Assembly (NCBI GenBank): GCA_020721585.1
Contig: DYMK01000012.1
Location: forward strand, 1 to 57,722
DNA from: Sulfuricurvum sp.
GTDB lineage: Bacteria > Campylobacterota > Campylobacteria > Campylobacterales > Sulfurimonadaceae
DNA: 57,722 nucleotides
Direction: 5' to 3'
The notes under the pieces are model-generated. The model was not told where the DNA came from and ran no database searches. It saw only the letters and a program-made list of their open reading frames with translations. This document shows positions 4,133 to 57,722 of the stretch, one piece after another. The translations under genes were made by a program, and so were the position numbers. The stretch's first letter is position 1; every line of letters starts with the position of its first letter.

Positions 4133-4903
4133 TTAGGGATAAAAGAACGAACTCACCAGCGTTAATTCCCCCGTTTTACGCATCGGGACGGTAAAAACTT
4201 GCTGTTTTTCGTTGAGTGTTCCCTCTTGGGTGATGATGGCAATTTGGGCGATGGTGAGGTCGTGTTGGTTCTCTCCATCCCCATAATAGTTGACATAGAC
4301 ATGGTACATTCCACTGGGTGGGGTGGGATTGGCATAAATTTCAGGGCCATAGCCTGTGGTCACATCGACATCCAATGCCCCTCCGTTTTCGACGACACGA
4401 TTCCCATAAAAGGTGTGTTGTCCCTCAGGCGAAACCACGTGCAAATCCAAATCGGTGCCATCACTGTCCCATGAGAGGACGATGCGCAGTCGGGAGGGGG
4501 CTTTATGAACGTTGTTTTCATAAAATTGGACGCTTTTACGCAATTTTCCACTGGTGTCGCGAATTTCGACGTTGTTGGAACCCGGCCCAAAAGCGTAGGG
4601 GCGTTGAAAATCACCGGTATCCTCATCGACGCTTAGGGGGAGGGCGATCCCATTGACGATGAGTTTGGCGGGTTTGCCTTTGAGGTGTTTGGCGATGTGT
4701 CCTTGGATCAACGCACTGTCGCTTTGTCCCAAGGTGTTGACCGATGAAGCGGGATAATTGACCGATTGCAAAAAGCCATTTCCCTCCCCTTGGGTGTTAC
4801 GCCATCCCCCAAAAGGGTGGTGAATGGTGATGGGTTCTCCTCCATAGAGGGTAGCAACAAGGACAAAAAGGGCAGTGAAACGGACAAAGGATGGTGTGGT
4901 CAT
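4133..4903 (-). CDS. YfaP-like exported protein (DUF2135)
   Basis: A 256-residue exported protein with a signal peptide over about residues 1-21 (ends TLYGGEP). The central part VLSWDSDGTDLDLHVVSP followed by GGALDVDVTTGYGPE and YHVYVNYYGDG is the DUF2135 pattern, a beta-rich domain thought to bind or contact other extracytoplasmic proteins. It is the last gene of the five-gene macroglobulin locus and overlaps the YfaQ-like gene by four bases (ATGA). The homologous gene also sits beside the A2M gene in E. coli (yfaP) and in the Pseudomonas mag operon. Function is unknown; periplasmic location is well supported. Confidence 0.85.
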   Translation of the reverse strand: MTTPSFVRFTALFVLVATLYGGEPITIHHPFGGWRNTQGEGNGFLQSVNYPASSVNTLGQSDSALIQGHIAKHLKGKPAKLIVNGIALPLSVDEDTGDFQRPYAFGPGSNNVEIRDTSGKLRKSVQFYENNVHKAPSRLRIVLSWDSDGTDLDLHVVSPEGQHTFYGNRVVENGGALDVDVTTGYGPEIYANPTPPSGMYHVYVNYYGDGENQHDLTIAQIAIITQEGTLNEKQQVFTVPMRKTGELTLVSSFFYP

Positions 4904-6573: not shown

Positions 6574-9500
6574 GAGGATTCTCCTCAAAAGCGTTGAGTG
6601 CGGGTTGGTACATCGCTCCATAACGGATGGGAGGAACACTAAACGTCCCCGTTTGTGCAGGACGTACGAGATTACGTAGGGTGAGTTTCCCCTTAAGATT
6701 GTCGATGGGGATGACGTACCCTTGGGGAGCAAGCTCATAGGTTGCTTTTTCTAAGGGGGTAGAATTTTTTCCCTTAGGAGCGCGAACCGAGATGCCCCAT
6801 GTGCCACTCTCAGGAATACACCCCGGAGGCAATGCGACATGAAGAAGACCGTAATTCAATGGAGATGAGGTATGGGGAGTGAGGACAATCTCATCCAAAT
6901 ACAGCTCATCGGTATGAAGTGGTTCGTTTTCCCCCACCAGTACCAAGGTGTAGAGTGCTTCATCGGCGGTGAGGGGGGTGTTTCTCCCTTTGTTGGAGAA
7001 CGTCGGGGTTTTTTTGACCAGACGGTACCAATGACGACGAATTTGGAGGGGAAGGGTCGAGGTTTGGGTCTGGGAACTCTCATAATTGACCACCGCAACC
7101 AATCCTGCTGCGGGGGTGGTCGTAAACGATTTGGGTAAGGTTAAGCCTTTGTACTGATAGAGGGTTTGCCCACTGAATTTCGATTGCGCTTGCCACGCAT
7201 TCGGGGCTAAGCGGGTGGTTTGCGGGGTGCGCATCAAGAGATCGGGAGTGGCAGAGAGGGCGTGATGGACCCATACCAACGTTAGGGCGCGATCCATGGT
7301 AGGGGATTGGGTGCGTACGTGTTCCAAGATCGACGTTGCTTTTTCGTGGGGAAGATGTCCCGTGTAGAGCAAGAGGGCATCGCCTAAAGGGAGTGCTGCG
7401 CGTTCCACGCGTTGGGCGCGAAGCGTCTCTTCTGAAACCATGGCAGGCAAGAGGGTTCCCCCCGCTTTTTGGAAGGTATGGGTGACCAAAAGGTACGCCA
7501 TTGCCTCGTGCAACTCCCCATTTTCAGAGGTCATGACCATACTGTTGGTCAAAAATTGGGGGTCATTGGTGGGGGTCGTGACCGGATGGGTCGTAAGATC
7601 AGTGATCAATGCTTGACTTAACGAACGGATAGGAAGCCCCATGTGTTCCATCCAATCCAACATTAATGCCCGCTTCCAGTGGGTTTGGTGTATCCCTTGG
7701 TGACGATAGACTTCCAATAACGTATCGAAATGATTTTTCGGTAACTTCAGGTGCAAGGCGCGTGAAGCGTACCAATCGGCATAATAGGCGTAGGTTGTTA
7801 AAAAAGGATCACCCTCTTTTTGGGGGGTACGCCACCACCCAAACACCGCATTGGGTCCCGCCATCTGTGCCAAACGGAAACGGAACGTATGGAGCCGTTG
7901 GGAGAGGAGATCCCATAATCCTTGCTCTTGGGGGCGCAGTGACTGTAGCGCAAGGGCGTAGGGGATGAGGCGACTGGAGGTTTGCTCGACACACCCGTAG
8001 GGGTAATCGATAAGATCATCCATCATCCGATGCAGCTGCTCTTGAGCATTTTGGGTAAATTGGATTGTGAGATTGGTCGCATCACTGGGGAGGGTCAAGG
8101 GGGTCTCTTGTGCTGTGATGGGGATGGTCACCGAATGGGGAGTAAGCCACTGTGAGGGGGCAATTTTGAGGGGGACACTTAGGCTATCGACCACCCCTTT
8201 TTCTCCCCCTAAGGTGAGAGTGAGGGTTTTATCCGTGGGGGAAACGCTCAAAGGGAGGGTGATGAAATTGGTGCCTGTTTTGAGATGAACGTTTTGGGTC
8301 GTGTTGACCCCTGCTCCATGGGCGTTAAGCTGGAGGGTTGTTTCGGTGGCGGTTTGATTAAATAACGCCACACTGGCATTGGGTTTATCCCCCAAGCGTA
8401 ACCAATTGGGACTTGTCCATTTGAGATAAAACGGTTTTTCAGAGCGAATGTAGCCGGTCGTTTGCCCTACAATCCCCTCTTCGTCCATCCCTTTGACCGT
8501 GATACGCCAACGGGTGAGGGAATCGGGCATTTTAAAGGTGACACGGACACGACCTGAACCATCGGTCACGAGATTGGGATTCCAATACGCCGTATCAATC
8601 TCATCCCGTCGGGGGCGTTCTTGGATTTTGATGGCGCGTTGGTGTTGGGCATTGGCTTTGGGAAATGCCACGCTGGAGGGGGGCTTTGCCAAATCGTACC
8701 CGATAAAACTCAAACTGGCGGTCGTACGGACATTATTGCGTCGTGGATGGTAGAAAAAATCGACGATGTTGGGGGCAATTTCGCTTTGCAGGACGTAGAT
8801 CATCTCATCGACTACCCCCACAGAAAGTGGGGTATTGGGGGAGAGGGAACCATTTTTATAGGCGGTAATGTCCAAGGTGACCGTCTCTTTGGGAGCATAG
8901 AGTGTTTTGGTGGGGTGGACATCAAACGTGAGGGTGGGTTGTTTAATCTTGAGTCCGCAATTTTGGAACACATAGCTATTACCCTTGACGTACACAGCCG
9001 ATAAGACGATATTGGTGCCATATGCTTCTTCCATGGGGAGGGTCACTTTCCATTGGGTGGGGGAAATTTTTTGAGCCTCCATCCATGCACTTTTTTCTCC
9101 TAAAAGCGCTGTTTTTTCGACCCGATCCCGCTCTAGGGTAAAGAGGGCATGCTTCACTGCTTCGGGGAAGGTGACCAGTACGCTTGCTTGGTCATTTAGG
9201 GCGTAGGAGGATTGGTCACTGACCATCGTAATGGAGCCTATGGGGGCATGCACCCCCTCACCACTGACCCAATGGGTTGTGGCAGCGATGATGGTGTGCG
9301 CTTCATCATAGAGGGAGAGGGTATAGGTTCCTGCACGGTCAAAAAGCACCTCAAAATGGTCTTGTGTGAGTATCGTCCCTTGGGAGCGGTGTTGATCTTC
9401 GAGTCGTACCCATTCCCAACTTATGGGGGTCGAAGTGGGGTGTTGGGTGAGGGTATGGGGGGTAAAGGTCACTTTTTCGTTGGGTTGGGAAAACGCTTTG

Positions 9501-54016: not shown

Positions 54017-55573
54017 ATGGGCGAAGAGCAAAAAAAACTATTAGAACAACAATTATGGAACATCGCTAATACCTTACGGGGGAAAATGGATGCGGATGAG
54101 TTTCGTGATTACATCCTTGGATTTATCTTTTACAAATACCTTTCCGAAAAAATAGAAAATTATGCGGATGCGATTCTCAAAGAGGATGAAATTACCTATC
54201 TCCAATTGGATGAAAATACGCACGCAGAGCTTTTAAGGGCTATTCGTGAAGAAGCGATCGAAAAACTGGGCTATTTTCTCAAACCCTCTGAGCTTTTTAG
54301 TCAAGTAGCCAAACGGGGGAATGGGGATACAAACAACTTCATCCTCGAAGATCTCACAAAAATTCTCCGTAGTATTGAGTCATCGACCATGGGGCATGAG
54401 AGTGAGGACGATTTTGTCCATCTTTTTGAAGACCTCGATTTGACCTCGACCAAGCTTGGCAAAACCGAAGAAGCAAAAAACACTCTTATCGCCAAAGTCC
54501 TTTTCCATCTCGACCAAATCAATTTTGAGCTCAAAAATCACGACCGTGATGTGCTTGGGGATGCGTATGAGTATTTGATTTCTCAATTCGCCGCAGGGGC
54601 AGGGAAAAAAGCGGGAGAGTTTTATACGCCGCAACAAGTCTCTAAAATCCTCGCAAAAATCGTCACCAATGGTAAAACCAAACTCAAATCGGTCTATGAC
54701 CCCACGTGTGGCTCAGGCTCTTTGCTCCTTCGTGTTGCCAAAGAGGTTCAGGACGTGAGCAACTTCTACGGTCAGGAACTTAACCGCACCACCTACAATC
54801 TTGCCCGAATGAACATGATTATGCACGATGTCCATTATCGTAAGTTTGACATCAAGCAAGAAGACACCCTCGAACACCCGCAACACATTGACCACCGTTT
54901 TGAAGCGATTGTCGCTAATCCTCCCTTCTCCGCTAACTGGTCGGCTTCACCTTTGCATACGAGTGATGACCGTTTTAGTCAATACGGTGTTTTAGCTCCT
55001 AAAAGCAAAGCCGATTTCGCGTTTGTCCAACACATGATTTACCATCTTGATGAGAATGGGACGATGGCGATTGTCTTGCCTCATGGGGTATTGTTCCGTG
55101 GTTCCTCGGAGGGAATCATCCGTAAATACCTTATTGAGAACAAAAACTTTCTTGACTGCGTTATCGGTCTGCCTGCCAATATCTTTTATGGCACTTCGAT
55201 CCCGACGTGTATTTTGGTGTTCAAAAAATGCCGTGAAGACTCTGAATACGTCCTCTTTATCGATGCGTCCAATGAGTATGAAAAAGCTAAAAATCAAAAC
55301 ATCCTCACCGATGAGAATGTCGAGAAGATTATCGATACGTACGAAAAGAGAGACGTAATCGAAAAATACTCCCACCTCGCCCCATTGAGCGAAATAGCCG
55401 AAAATGATTACAACCTCAATATCCCCCGTTATGTCGATACCTTTGAGGAAGAGGAATCCATCGACTTGGATGCGGTATCCCATGCGCTTCGTGACATCGA
55501 TATTCAGATGCGCGACACCGATGCGACCATAGCGGCATTTTGCGCTGAACTTGGTATTGGCTCACCGTTTTAA
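54017..55573 (+). CDS. hsdM: Type I restriction-modification methyltransferase HsdM
   Basis: A 518-residue N6-adenine methyltransferase subunit. The helical N-terminus (LWNIANTLRGKMDADEFRDY) is followed by FYTPQQVSKILAKI, motif I DPTCGSGSLLLRV and motif IV NPPFSANW. HsdM needs an HsdS specificity subunit for target recognition and, with HsdR, restricts unmodified DNA. In this locus the expected hsdS is missing directly downstream; instead a MazF-like gene follows 11 bp later. HsdR could lie beyond the window edge. Confidence 0.96.
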   Translation: MGEEQKKLLEQQLWNIANTLRGKMDADEFRDYILGFIFYKYLSEKIENYADAILKEDEITYLQLDENTHAELLRAIREEAIEKLGYFLKPSELFSQVAKRGNGDTNNFILEDLTKILRSIESSTMGHESEDDFVHLFEDLDLTSTKLGKTEEAKNTLIAKVLFHLDQINFELKNHDRDVLGDAYEYLISQFAAGAGKKAGEFYTPQQVSKILAKIVTNGKTKLKSVYDPTCGSGSLLLRVAKEVQDVSNFYGQELNRTTYNLARMNMIMHDVHYRKFDIKQEDTLEHPQHIDHRFEAIVANPPFSANWSASPLHTSDDRFSQYGVLAPKSKADFAFVQHMIYHLDENGTMAIVLPHGVLFRGSSEGIIRKYLIENKNFLDCVIGLPANIFYGTSIPTCILVFKKCREDSEYVLFIDASNEYEKAKNQNILTDENVEKIIDTYEKRDVIEKYSHLAPLSEIAENDYNLNIPRYVDTFEEEESIDLDAVSHALRDIDIQMRDTDATIAAFCAELGIGSPF

Positions 55574-55584
55574 AGGGGGAAAGT

Positions 55585-55974
55585 ATGAAAAACTTTGATA
55601 AATGGAATGATGTCAAAAAGAGAATAAACGGCAAAATAAAAACACCTCAAATACGGCAAAGAGAGATTTATTGGGCGAATATCGGTGAGAATATTGAATT
55701 TGAGCAAAACGGCAAAGGGGAAGATTTTATGCGACCGCTACTGATATTTAAAAAGTTCTCTAATACGATGTTTTTTGGTATCCCCTTATCCACGCAACAA
55801 AAAGAGGGCGATTGGTTTTTTGAGTTTAGCTTTTTAGAGGATAAATCAAGCACCGCTTTGATTGTTCAGGGTAGATTATTTGACGCAAAAAGATTGGATA
55901 GAAAAATAGGAAAAATGTCGATAGAAGATTTTGAGAGTTTAAAAATGAGTTTCAAGGAGTTGTTCAATGTGTGA
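55585..55974 (+). CDS. PemK/MazF-like protein, copy 1
   Basis: A 129-residue protein of the PemK/MazF fold. The segment REIYWANIGENI followed by GKGEDFMRPLLIFKKF and FGIPLST is the typical beta-barrel core of MazF toxins, which cut single-stranded mRNA. An N-terminal extension of about 25 residues (MKNFDKWNDVKKR) precedes the core. GGGGGAAAG is the ribosome site. No recognisable antitoxin is adjacent. A second copy lies at 57277-57666 with an almost identical N-terminus. It lies between hsdM and an hsdS remnant, an unusual place. Confidence 0.8.
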   Translation: MKNFDKWNDVKKRINGKIKTPQIRQREIYWANIGENIEFEQNGKGEDFMRPLLIFKKFSNTMFFGIPLSTQQKEGDWFFEFSFLEDKSSTALIVQGRLFDAKRLDRKIGKMSIEDFESLKMSFKELFNV

Positions 55975-56066
55975 TGTTCTCCCCGACGAATCGGGAATAG
56001 TCCTGACAAGCAGGGAATTAGAAGAGAAGTATAACACACCAATGATAAATAATCAAAACCATTCTC

Positions 56067-56112
56067 GTCATCCCGAACTTGATTCTCGTCATTCCGTGCT
56101 TGACACGGAATC
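56067..56112. repeat. GTCAT palindromic repeat, copy 3 (partly doubled)
   Basis: A GTCATCCCGAACTTGATTC half-unit followed by a hairpin in which ATTCCGTG (56091-56098) pairs with CACGGAAT (56104-56111). The stem is identical to hairpin 1 of the copy at 31390-31457. It lies just before the hsdS-like sequence and within an open frame. Confidence 0.8.
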
Positions 56113-56120
56113 TAAAACCG

Positions 56121-56170
56121 CAAAACTGCGCTTTAAAGAGTTTAGTGAGGAGTGGGAAGAGAAAAAATTG
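56121..56170 (+). repeat. hsdS-start direct repeat, left copy
   Basis: A 50-bp stretch beginning CAAAACTGCGCTTTAAAGAG encodes the first residues of an HsdS protein. It matches 57211-57260 at 47 of 50 positions, and the two copies enclose the DUF1016 nuclease gene. Confidence 0.9.
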
Positions 56171-56181
56171 GAGAATATAGA

Positions 56182-57204
56182 ATGAAAAATCTTCTCAAGT
56201 CAGAATTACTTACTAATATTCGAAATCTTCTCATCGAATCTCGCGGAAAACTACAGCAAACCGTCAATACGGTGATGGTGCAAACCTATTGGCATATCGG
56301 TAGGATGATTGTCGAAGAGGAGCAACAAGGGGAGCAAAGAGCCCAATACGGTAAAGCGCAGCTAGAGCAGATAGCCAACGTGTTAACACAAGAGTTCGGC
56401 AAAGGATTTGACGTTACTAATTTACGAAAAATGAGACAGTTTTATCAACTCTTTCCAATTCGAGACTCAGTGCGTCTCGAATTGAGTTGGACGCATTACC
56501 GTATCCTCATCCGAGTTGAAAATCTAAAAGCACGAGAATGGTATATAGCAGAGAGTATCGCAAACAACTGGAGCGTAAGGGCGCTAGAGCGTCAAATTAG
56601 TACCCTTTATTACGAACGACTTCTTTCAAGCAGTGATAAAGCTCCTGTCATTCAAGAAGCATCCGAAAAAACAACTCCATTGCAAGTGGACATTAAAAAT
56701 TATTTACGTGATCCCTATATCCTCGATTTTTTAAATCTTCCGACTACCTCAGTAGTGGAAAGCACGATAGAACAGGGATTGATTGATAATCTACAGCAAT
56801 TTTTACTCGAACTTGGACGGGGGTTTGCGTTCGTTTCCCGCCAACAGCGTCTTAGCGTCGAGGATCAAGATTTTTATATTGATTTGGTGTTTTACAACTT
56901 CAAACTCAAATGTTTTTTACTGATTGATTTAAAACTGGGAAAACTCGCCCATCAAGATGTGGGACAAATGGACACCTACGTCCGTATCTATGACAAATTT
57001 CACAAAAGCGAGGATGATAATCCGACCATCGGGCTGATATTGTGCAGTGAAAAATCTGAAGCGGTGGCAAAATACTCTGTATTAAGTGATAGTAAACAGC
57101 TTTTTAGTTCTAAATATCTCCCCTATCTCCCAAGTGAAGAAGAACTCCGAATCGAGCTTTTACGTGAGCGTTATTTGATCAATGATGCGGGAGAAACCCA
57201 ATGA
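56182..57204 (+). CDS. DUF1016/YhcG-type PD-(D/E)XK nuclease
   Basis: A 340-residue protein of the YhcG/DUF1016 family. The N-terminal helical domain (YWHIGRMIVEEEQQGEQRA and FGKGFDVTNLRKMRQFYQ) is followed by the family segment SWTHYRILIRVEN and WYIAESIANNWSVRALERQI. The C-terminal nuclease domain has the PD-(D/E)XK core DFYIDLVFYNFKLKCFLLID followed by LKLGKL. Such proteins are frequent in defence islands and often lie inside type I RM operons; a role in stabilising or controlling them is suspected. ATG 56182 overlaps the upstream remnant (ATGA), and the stop overlaps the next remnant (ATGA). It is flanked by the direct repeats. Confidence 0.9.
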   Translation: MKNLLKSELLTNIRNLLIESRGKLQQTVNTVMVQTYWHIGRMIVEEEQQGEQRAQYGKAQLEQIANVLTQEFGKGFDVTNLRKMRQFYQLFPIRDSVRLELSWTHYRILIRVENLKAREWYIAESIANNWSVRALERQISTLYYERLLSSSDKAPVIQEASEKTTPLQVDIKNYLRDPYILDFLNLPTTSVVESTIEQGLIDNLQQFLLELGRGFAFVSRQQRLSVEDQDFYIDLVFYNFKLKCFLLIDLKLGKLAHQDVGQMDTYVRIYDKFHKSEDDNPTIGLILCSEKSEAVAKYSVLSDSKQLFSSKYLPYLPSEEELRIELLRERYLINDAGETQ

Positions 57205-57290
57205 GAAGCCCAAAACTGCGCTTTAAAGAGTTTAGTGGGGAGTGGGAAGAGAAGAAGTTGGGGGAAAGGTATCACGATGAAAAATTTTGA
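57201..57290 (+). pseudogene. Second hsdS 5' remnant
   Basis: A 29-codon frame starting ATG 57201, overlapping the nuclease stop. MRSPKLRFKEFSGEWEEKK is a perfect HsdS N-terminus; after LGE the frame runs into the second MazF-like gene and stops at 57290. The hsdS sequence is therefore cut after about 22 codons. The GGGGGAAAGG in its end acts as the ribosome site of that MazF-like gene. Confidence 0.75.
57211..57260 (+). repeat. hsdS-start direct repeat, right copy
   Basis: Right copy of the 50-bp repeat at 56121-56170 (47 of 50 identical). The distance between copies is 1090 bp and holds exactly one gene. Confidence 0.9.
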
Positions 57291-57666
57291 TAAATGGAAT
57301 GAAGTCAAAAAAAGAACCGAACAAAAAGAAGAGACGGCAATATTTAAAGAGCGTGAAATTTATTGGGCGAATATTGGTGAAAATATCGGATATGAGCAAA
57401 ACGGAAAGGGTGAAGACTTTATGAGACCTCTTTTAATTTTTCGTAAATATTCCAATAAACTTTTCTGCGGTATACCGCTATCCACGACTATTCGAGAGGG
57501 TAGTTTCTTTTTCAACTTTAAATTCTCAAGTGATAAAGAGAGTAGTGCACTACTCGTGCAGGCAAAAACATTTGATGGCAAAAGATTAGATAGAAAAATC
57601 GGTATGATAGATAAAGATGATTTTAAACGTCTTGAACAAAAGATGAGAGAGTTAATGAAATTATGA
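57277..57666 (+). CDS. PemK/MazF-like protein, copy 2
   Basis: A 129-residue paralogue of the gene at 55585, with the same length and start (MKNFDKWNEVKKR), the core REIYWANIGENIGYEQNGKG followed by EDFMRPLLIFRK, FCGIPLST, and the KRLDRKIG segment near the C-terminus. The two proteins differ mainly in the middle (residues about 70-95). The start lies inside the second hsdS remnant. The stop overlaps a possible next ATG at 57663. As with copy 1 no antitoxin is visible. MazF-type RNase activity is inferred from family only. Confidence 0.8.
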   Translation: MKNFDKWNEVKKRTEQKEETAIFKEREIYWANIGENIGYEQNGKGEDFMRPLLIFRKYSNKLFCGIPLSTTIREGSFFFNFKFSSDKESSALLVQAKTFDGKRLDRKIGMIDKDDFKRLEQKMRELMKL

Positions 57667-57722
57667 GAGGCGAATTCGCATCATTAACGAATACCCATTG
57701 CCAATATTCTACCATCCAAACC
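57663..57722 (+). other. Possible start of a further gene (partial)
   Basis: ATG 57663 overlaps the stop of the second MazF-like gene (ATGA), and the frame stays open for 20 codons to the window edge (MRGEFASLTNTHCQ). Another frame here is also open. Nothing recognisable can be read; an hsdS remainder or antitoxin would be expected from context but is not shown. Confidence 0.2.

Follow-up and report, generated by a model that had tools for sequence, protein, structure and literature searches.

In Campylobacter jejuni, type I hsd loci carry accessory open reading frames (ORFs), mlo between hsdS and hsdM and rlo between hsdR and hsdS (Miller et al. 2005, as related in PMC5183652). The toxin-antitoxin (TA) system DarTG2 is lodged within a type I restriction-modification (RM) system of enteropathogenic Escherichia coli (EPEC; PMC12255303), and the anticodon nuclease PrrC is described as silenced by the type I RM enzyme to which it is linked (PMC2610378). 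In the type III TA systems ToxIN, CptIN and TenpIN, an RNA antitoxin is paired with a MazF/Kid-like endoribonuclease (PMC5086642). Here we describe a type I RM locus on a 57,722-nucleotide stretch of DNA from Sulfuricurvum sp. (assembly GCA_020721585.1, contig DYMK01000012.1), hereafter the window, which is the whole of contig C21 of a draft genome (2.29 Mb, 112 contigs). Downstream of hsdM the window carries two genes for MazF-like toxins, a gene for a DUF1016 nuclease and two truncated hsdS starts (stubs), and each mazF gene of the locus is accompanied by a gene for a small structured RNA on the opposite strand.

The first of these RNA genes, RNA1 (55970..56024, minus strand), lies between mazF1 and hsdS stub 1; the second, RNA2, lies between mazF2 and the real hsdS, on the plus strand of another contig, C81 (locus L009, 7730-7785). 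In alignments of relatives, the sequence 3' of mazF comprises a variable hairpin, a small second hairpin (often UCC-UUCG-GGA) and then an opposite-strand sigma70-like promoter. Thirty-two RNAs align with two helices in which 85% of cells are paired, and the alignment holds 47 double-change cells as against 16 after shuffling (0 of 500 shuffles as high), clearly above slid controls as well. As the MAFFT register was imperfect in hairpin A, we set the structure manually and then built the covariance model R1 from this alignment. R1 matches both RNAs of the locus, RNA1 with an E value of 0.0015, a sequence that was itself among those used to train the model. A search of 12 loci at Rfam gathering thresholds returned no match to the RNA.

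Surveying 299 genomes of the order with R1 at E<=1e-6 yielded 46 matches, 34 of them convergent with a detected mazF and abutting its 3' end. One of the 12 without an adjoining detected mazF is RNA2, which is separated from its toxin gene by an insertion sequence (IS); the exceptions that we inspected mostly lie beside mazF remnants (L238, L239, L241 at 855) or beside a truncated or chimeric mazF copy (L244, L240), and one has a protein without assignment as its neighbour (L243). In an independent scan of named genomes, covering the best 80 of 459 relatives, R1 matched convergently at the toxin 3' end in 74 of the 80 mazF loci (64 of the 70 that do not lie on contigs used for training). Five of the remaining loci carry a variant of the RNA that we recognised by eye, and the sixth is truncated at a contig end, giving an RNA partner in 79 of 79 scorable mazF loci with these five judgements included. 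Loci with an RNA partner are found as far afield as Patescibacteria, Gracilibacteria, Margulisbacteria and Halobeggiatoa.

The RNA strand is indicated by the promoter. Of 100 distinct elements, 19% carry a perfect TTGACA-N17-TATAAT promoter and 60% one that departs from it at no more than two positions; dinucleotide shuffles give 0% and 1.9%, and the opposite strand 0%. A promoter was recognisable in 90 elements, and in 68 of these the end of the -10 box lies exactly 3 nt ahead of where the model begins. At RNA1 the promoter (56028..56056, minus strand) consists of a -10 box TATACT (56028-56033) and a -35 box TTGATT (56051-56056) at a spacing of 17. We considered whether the hairpins might instead work on the sense strand, as a terminator, 3'-end stabiliser or attenuator of the mazF message, with the opposite promoter being incidental or unrelated. 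A stem is equivalent on either strand, and the region sits exactly at the mazF 3' end, as such a role would predict; however, the promoter is conserved on one strand only and at a fixed position, far exceeds shuffles and has no counterpart on the opposite strand at up to two mismatches, and no U-run follows the sense hairpin on its 3' side in the loci read. Furthermore, hairpin A contains twice as many G-U pairs as A-C mismatches on the promoter strand (47 versus 23; p = 0.006), an excess that favours this strand as that of the RNA. We regard a sense-strand function as improbable.

The toxin has no conserved protein partner. The AlphaFold2 (AF2) model of mazF2 (predicted local distance difference test score, pLDDT, 84) has MazF-mt1 as its best structural match (Z 14.1, 102 residues aligned), and a profile match to EndoA (3.3e-06) was obtained; by PF02452, the EndoA profile and structure, the toxin has the MazF/PemK-type fold of type II TA toxins. 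The best 50 structural matches were all MazF chains and included no type III toxins, a result that does not refute kinship with type III. Across 80 loci, neither a MazE/PemI-like antitoxin nor any other conserved neighbour recurs beside mazF as a cognate protein antitoxin: no neighbouring family occurs in more than 13 of the 80, with hsdM and hsdS themselves the most frequent. The RNA is the sole constant partner of mazF in the loci examined.

The RNA gene can also outlive the toxin. In six loci (L231, L236, L238, L239, L241 and L244) the module has decayed, with the toxin lost and the RNA and its promoter retained, and pCJ419 and other small C. jejuni plasmids carry a 99-bp RNA gene that is 93% identical to the mazF-adjacent one of pVir, without any mazF. 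Because the RNA is a constant partner, no protein partner is conserved and the RNA persists after the toxin has gone, we consider it likely, judging from sequence, that the RNA is the antitoxin of the MazF-fold toxin.

Two modes of action can be envisaged. Since orphan RNAs are kept without an adjoining mazF, binding of the toxin in trans is somewhat favoured over pure antisense pairing, although we would put trans binding itself at a little below an even chance. The other mode is that of a cis-antisense (type I) antitoxin, which would pair with the mazF message at its 3' end and trigger decay by RNase III. Convergently transcribed toxin and antisense RNA pairs that overlap at their 3' ends are known as type I systems in Bacillus. 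The mazF modules appear to share this layout, as the RNA gene lies on the strand opposite mazF and either overlaps its 3' end or adjoins it, and the convergent overlap is present at every locus; moreover, CjrA of C. jejuni 81-176 pVir is called a type I antisense RNA antitoxin (PMC10470494, PMC7826846, citing Shen et al. 2016). On the other hand, the hairpins covary, though antisense pairing requires no conserved fold, and the RNA gene persists after toxin deletion and is 93% conserved on plasmids that lack mazF. An antisense antitoxin is consequently a possible but rather doubtful explanation.

Several observations on RNAs and modules in unusual settings stand apart from these comparisons. 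Orphan RNAs downstream of a Rep gene are found at 2501-2595 of L256 (pCJ419), at 1703-1798 of L257 and on three more small Campylobacter plasmids, conserved at about 92-93%. Genome G143 holds four near-identical orphan RNAs (L241 855-907 and 4409-4461, L242 4431-4483 and C131:57-109) accompanied by mazF fragments only, as if the RNA itself multiplied or served another purpose. At L243 (4332-4986), a 204-aa protein ending in KELID runs directly into the RNA; it has no Pfam match and looks Abi/HEPN-like by eye, and here a different gene may have been joined to a mazF 3' end and its RNA. In a Sulfurimonas metagenome-assembled genome (MAG; L133 4973-6023), mazF-RNA-mazF-RNA-mazF stand in tandem with no hsd sequence, and the -35 boxes of the RNAs overlap the start of the next mazF. 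Finally, mazF shares one open frame with other genes in L181 (1045-2841), L198 (2132-3244), L207 (4989-6314) and L209 (2586-3998); the fusion partners, identified by eye from translations, are housekeeping-like (CysN, CMP-sugar synthetase, RmlD), which suggests that the module was inserted in frame at gene ends.

Within the window, the plus-strand genes begin with hsdM (54017..55573; TIGR00497 hsdM, 1.8e-141; N6_Mtase, 8.6e-115; HsdM_N), the methyltransferase subunit of the type I system. It is followed by mazF1 (55585..55974), whose 129-aa product is an antitoxin-less PemK/MazF-like toxin (PF02452 PemK_toxin, 7.4e-07; family alignment); hsdS stub 1 (56042..56185; MINNQNHS...KLRFKEFSEEWEEKKLENIE), which has a leader 97% identical to that of the full hsdS on C81; a 340-aa DUF1016/YhcG PDDEXK nuclease (56182..57204; YhcG_C, 1.8e-55; DUF1016_N, 6.5e-44; PADLOC PDC-S02); hsdS stub 2 (57201..57290; MRSPKLRFKEFSGEWEEKKLGERYHDEKF), recognised by its homology to hsdS starts; and mazF2 (57277..57666; PF02452 PemK_toxin, 3.1e-09; MazF fold in the AF2 model), which matches no PADLOC model. 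The two mazF genes are 62% identical in amino acids and 67% in DNA. A gap of 11 bp parts hsdM from mazF1; mazF1 overlaps the ORF that holds the first hsdS start (55967-56185) by 8 bp, this ORF overlaps the DUF1016 gene by 4 bp, the DUF1016 gene overlaps stub 2 by 4 bp, and stub 2 overlaps mazF2 by 14 bp. The initial annotation, made from the window alone, had given precisely this gene order after hsdM, which coordinates and Pfam and NCBIfam assignments bear out, and had described joins by overlaps of 4-14 bases or gaps below 20, as we measured. The RNA genes on the opposite strand were beyond its view. Its estimate of about 20 codons for each hsdS start was too low, stub 1 having 47 codons when counted from its hsdS-homologous ATG at 56042, or up to 72 when counted from 55967, and stub 2 having 29. 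It had also placed these genes in the position of hsdS, whereas a complete hsdS is present beyond the IS. Of the outcome that it would have counted against itself, a full hsdS directly next in an order fixed among relatives, one half was found: the full hsdS lies beyond the IS, and the order varies.

The contig enters one end of this multicopy IS at 57669 (left end, 57669..57722, beginning GGCGAATTCGC), and the element was inserted 2 bp past the mazF2 stop codon, between mazF2 and RNA2, so that it parts mazF2 from RNA2 and hsdS. The same IS end is found at no fewer than five other contig ends (at least 5), and the opposite end at seven. When left and right flanks were compared, only three pairs shared a 3-bp duplication: C88/C7 (TTT), C46/C47 (ACA) and C21/C81 (AGA). 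Closing the IS site in silico restored a continuous 399-aa ORF for C88/C7 and a 78-aa frame for C46/C47, and both pairs support a 3-bp duplication as the rule for this IS. Outward from the IS, C81 carries a full-length hsdS as its first gene (L009 7730-6483, minus strand; 415 aa, two Methylase_S domains), followed by genes for a Phd/YefM-like antitoxin and a RelE toxin and by hsdR (HSDR_N and EcoR124_C domains) in two overlapping frames. The split of hsdR (L009 3002-5822) reflects either a frameshift or a sequencing error. Gene content is complementary, as C21 lacks hsdS and hsdR, and C81 lacks hsdM. Because of the shared AGA duplication and this complementarity, we joined C21 to C81, and the locus very probably reads hsdM–mazF1–hsdS stub–DUF1016–hsdS stub–mazF2–[IS]–hsdS–TA–hsdR. 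HsdM, HsdS with two target recognition domains and HsdR, the three subunits of a type I RM system, were all found, split over two contigs whose contiguity would follow from the IS and the AGA duplication.

We next asked what the stubs are. The short ORFs between the window genes bear the conserved HsdS start KLRFKEFS(G/E)EWEEKKL. Comparing mazF1-stub 1 with mazF2-hsdS after closure of the IS, DNA identity is 67% in mazF, 61% in the RNA and promoter, 97% in the hsdS leader and 78% in the KLRF motif. The contrast between leader and mazF implies that the pieces have different histories, and stub 1 appears to be a recent copy of the locus's own hsdS start, joined to an older or foreign mazF. The hsdM-hsdS gap itself is a variable site for accessory genes. 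In the same genus it is empty in L211 and L216, and holds DUF1016 in L222, AbiTii in L217 and, in L215, an Abi_2-like gene slightly below the Pfam cut-off; L231, from the same genome as the window, has a gap with Fic, a mazF remnant and an RNA. Elsewhere, L085 carries a 74% identical DUF1016 gene between hsdM and hsdS, the stop of the window DUF1016 gene overlaps the start of stub 2 just as it would a genuine hsdS, and mazF-RNA-hsdS is an arrangement found both on C81 and in other loci. We conclude that the stubs are, in all likelihood, scars at junctions where hsd loci that carried different accessory genes recombined. Two side observations concern the same region. A dispersed genomic repeat, CGTCATTCCGTGCTTGACACGGAATC, lies in frame within the hsdS leader of both the stub (window 56060-56120) and the intact hsdS (L009 ~7600-7710). 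In L082 (G059:C72), a mazF 3' end with RNA is present twice in nearly identical form (4284-4336 and 7415-7467), upstream of two different hsdS genes, a duplication that is a likely substrate for specificity switching via recombination.

A more specialised possibility is that the 5' end of hsdS is a true acquisition site, subject to repeated dedicated or site-specific insertion as in an integron-like array. The two stubs of the window could be taken in this way, as could the Sulfurovum MAG locus L081 (= L131), where two intact stubs and another, truncated one lie between or behind three tandem mazF genes, and tandem mazF modules recur in L131, L133 and L147. Yet the two window stubs end at different hsdS codons, DUF1016 and mazF relatives naturally precede hsdS, and the L133 arrays contain no hsdS sequence. 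The Sulfurovum locus is the only further one with comparable stubs, making 2 of more than 100 loci; a strict DNA pattern for the hsdS motif hit only 3 of the 299 genomes, being too stringent for a survey of stubs. In an analysis that included no search aimed at integrases, the RNA gene and its promoter were the sole conserved spacer element found. An acquisition site of this kind is unlikely. It is harder still to credit that the array or the contig joint arose by misassembly. The genome is a draft of 112 contigs, the contig ends in a multicopy IS and hsdR is frameshifted, but the mazF copies have diverged to 62% amino acid identity, which misassembly does not create, and an 82% identical mazF occurs in a similar stub-mazF layout in an unrelated MAG. 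These results bear on the rest of the initial annotation. Its view of the region as a modular defence locus gains support, as the same-genus gap holds DUF1016, AbiTii, an Abi_2-like gene, Fic or nothing; the repeated insertion at one point that it proposed is not supported, given the unequal stub ends and the relatives of the accessory genes that stand 5' of hsdS starts. The translational coupling that it emphasised is real, but is a general habit of these modules and not special to the array. The comparison of hsdM-hsdS junctions in relatives, for which it had called, did reveal other genes in the gap and gave no support for a single insertion point.

We propose that the module consists of a MazF-fold toxin and a small structured RNA that would be transcribed, under a strong promoter of its own, toward the toxin 3' end and would silence the MazF-fold RNase. 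Were the RNA lost or shut off, upon infection or loss of the locus, the toxin would be freed, resulting in addiction to the RM locus and possibly in abortive infection. Recombination among hsd loci with differing gap contents would import such modules, each event leaving behind the conserved 5' end of an hsdS, a stub whose translation is coupled to that of the following gene. In this manner the gap may have accumulated addiction and defence modules, namely two mazF-RNA modules and one DUF1016 nuclease; the IS insertion after mazF2 would be a later event, with the working hsdS lying beyond it. This joint account of the locus and of an RNA antitoxin seems reasonably likely from the sequences compared. 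A bolder version, which we offer tentatively, is that of a widespread class of RNA-controlled TA systems, from Campylobacterota to Patescibacteria, in which a trans-acting two-hairpin RNA from a convergent promoter inhibits a MazF-fold RNase and modules stack in the hsdM-hsdS gap as guards.

Several points weigh on the other side. The G-U bias is modest, and the elements were chosen by a model that prefers G-U. R1 misses divergent variants, such as the C. jejuni and H. suis elements, where the layout is recognisable and the RNA longer. In about 61 of 80 loci the mazF modules lie away from hsdM and hsdS, and their link to RM is frequent, not obligatory. Orphan RNAs could be recent relics. The proposed joint across the IS depends on a 3-bp duplication and gene content, with no read spanning the IS, and given the hsdR frameshift the locus may methylate without restricting.

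Taken alone, the array is a variant, unusual but understandable, of a locus type already known; what is valuable here is the general association of mazF with an RNA. In this clade, PemK/MazF genes bear type II annotations, yet mazF has no recurrent protein partner. A conserved RNA partner, if true, would explain how solitary MazF genes are tolerated and would move a large set of them into RNA-controlled TA systems. More generally, the locus offers a concrete mechanism by which addiction modules could collect in type I RM loci, the scars keeping a record of the recombination.

Compared with known TA systems, the module resembles type II MazEF and PemIK in toxin fold and family (PF02452), but has no conserved MazE/PemI-like neighbour. 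With type III systems it would share the pairing of an RNA antitoxin, here proposed, with an endoribonuclease of MazF/Kid-like fold. Type III RNAs are upstream tandem repeats in one operon under one promoter and with a terminator, an arrangement that the mazF-RNA modules do not have; the RNA of these modules is downstream, convergent, usually a single unit and equipped with its own promoter. The AbiF-RCd22 system of Clostridioides difficile (PMC12373285) differs in its toxin, which is Abi_2 there and MazF in the window. On pVir, a MazF of the same family is accompanied by a convergent three-hairpin RNA with a TATAAT box, which R1 does not detect, and CjrA is described as an RNA antitoxin from this plasmid (PMC10470494, PMC7826846). 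CjrA may be a relative of the mazF RNAs, and its toxin, named CjpT, may be this MazF. We also considered CJpv2 of pVir as the RNA and rejected it, as its reported IA3902 coordinates fall in a region without mazF.

Compared with other type I loci, the present locus resembles that of EPEC in having TA genes nested in an hsd operon as one defence island, although DarTG2 has a protein antitoxin, sits between hsdS and hsdR and is present in single copy. Like PrrC, the proposed system links a ribonuclease toxin to type I RM; the inhibitor of PrrC is the RM protein itself, whereas here an RNA is proposed. The mlo and rlo genes of C. jejuni are likewise intervening ORFs in Campylobacterota type I loci, but the window locus stacks several accessory genes, mazF-RNA modules among them, with hsdS stubs in between.

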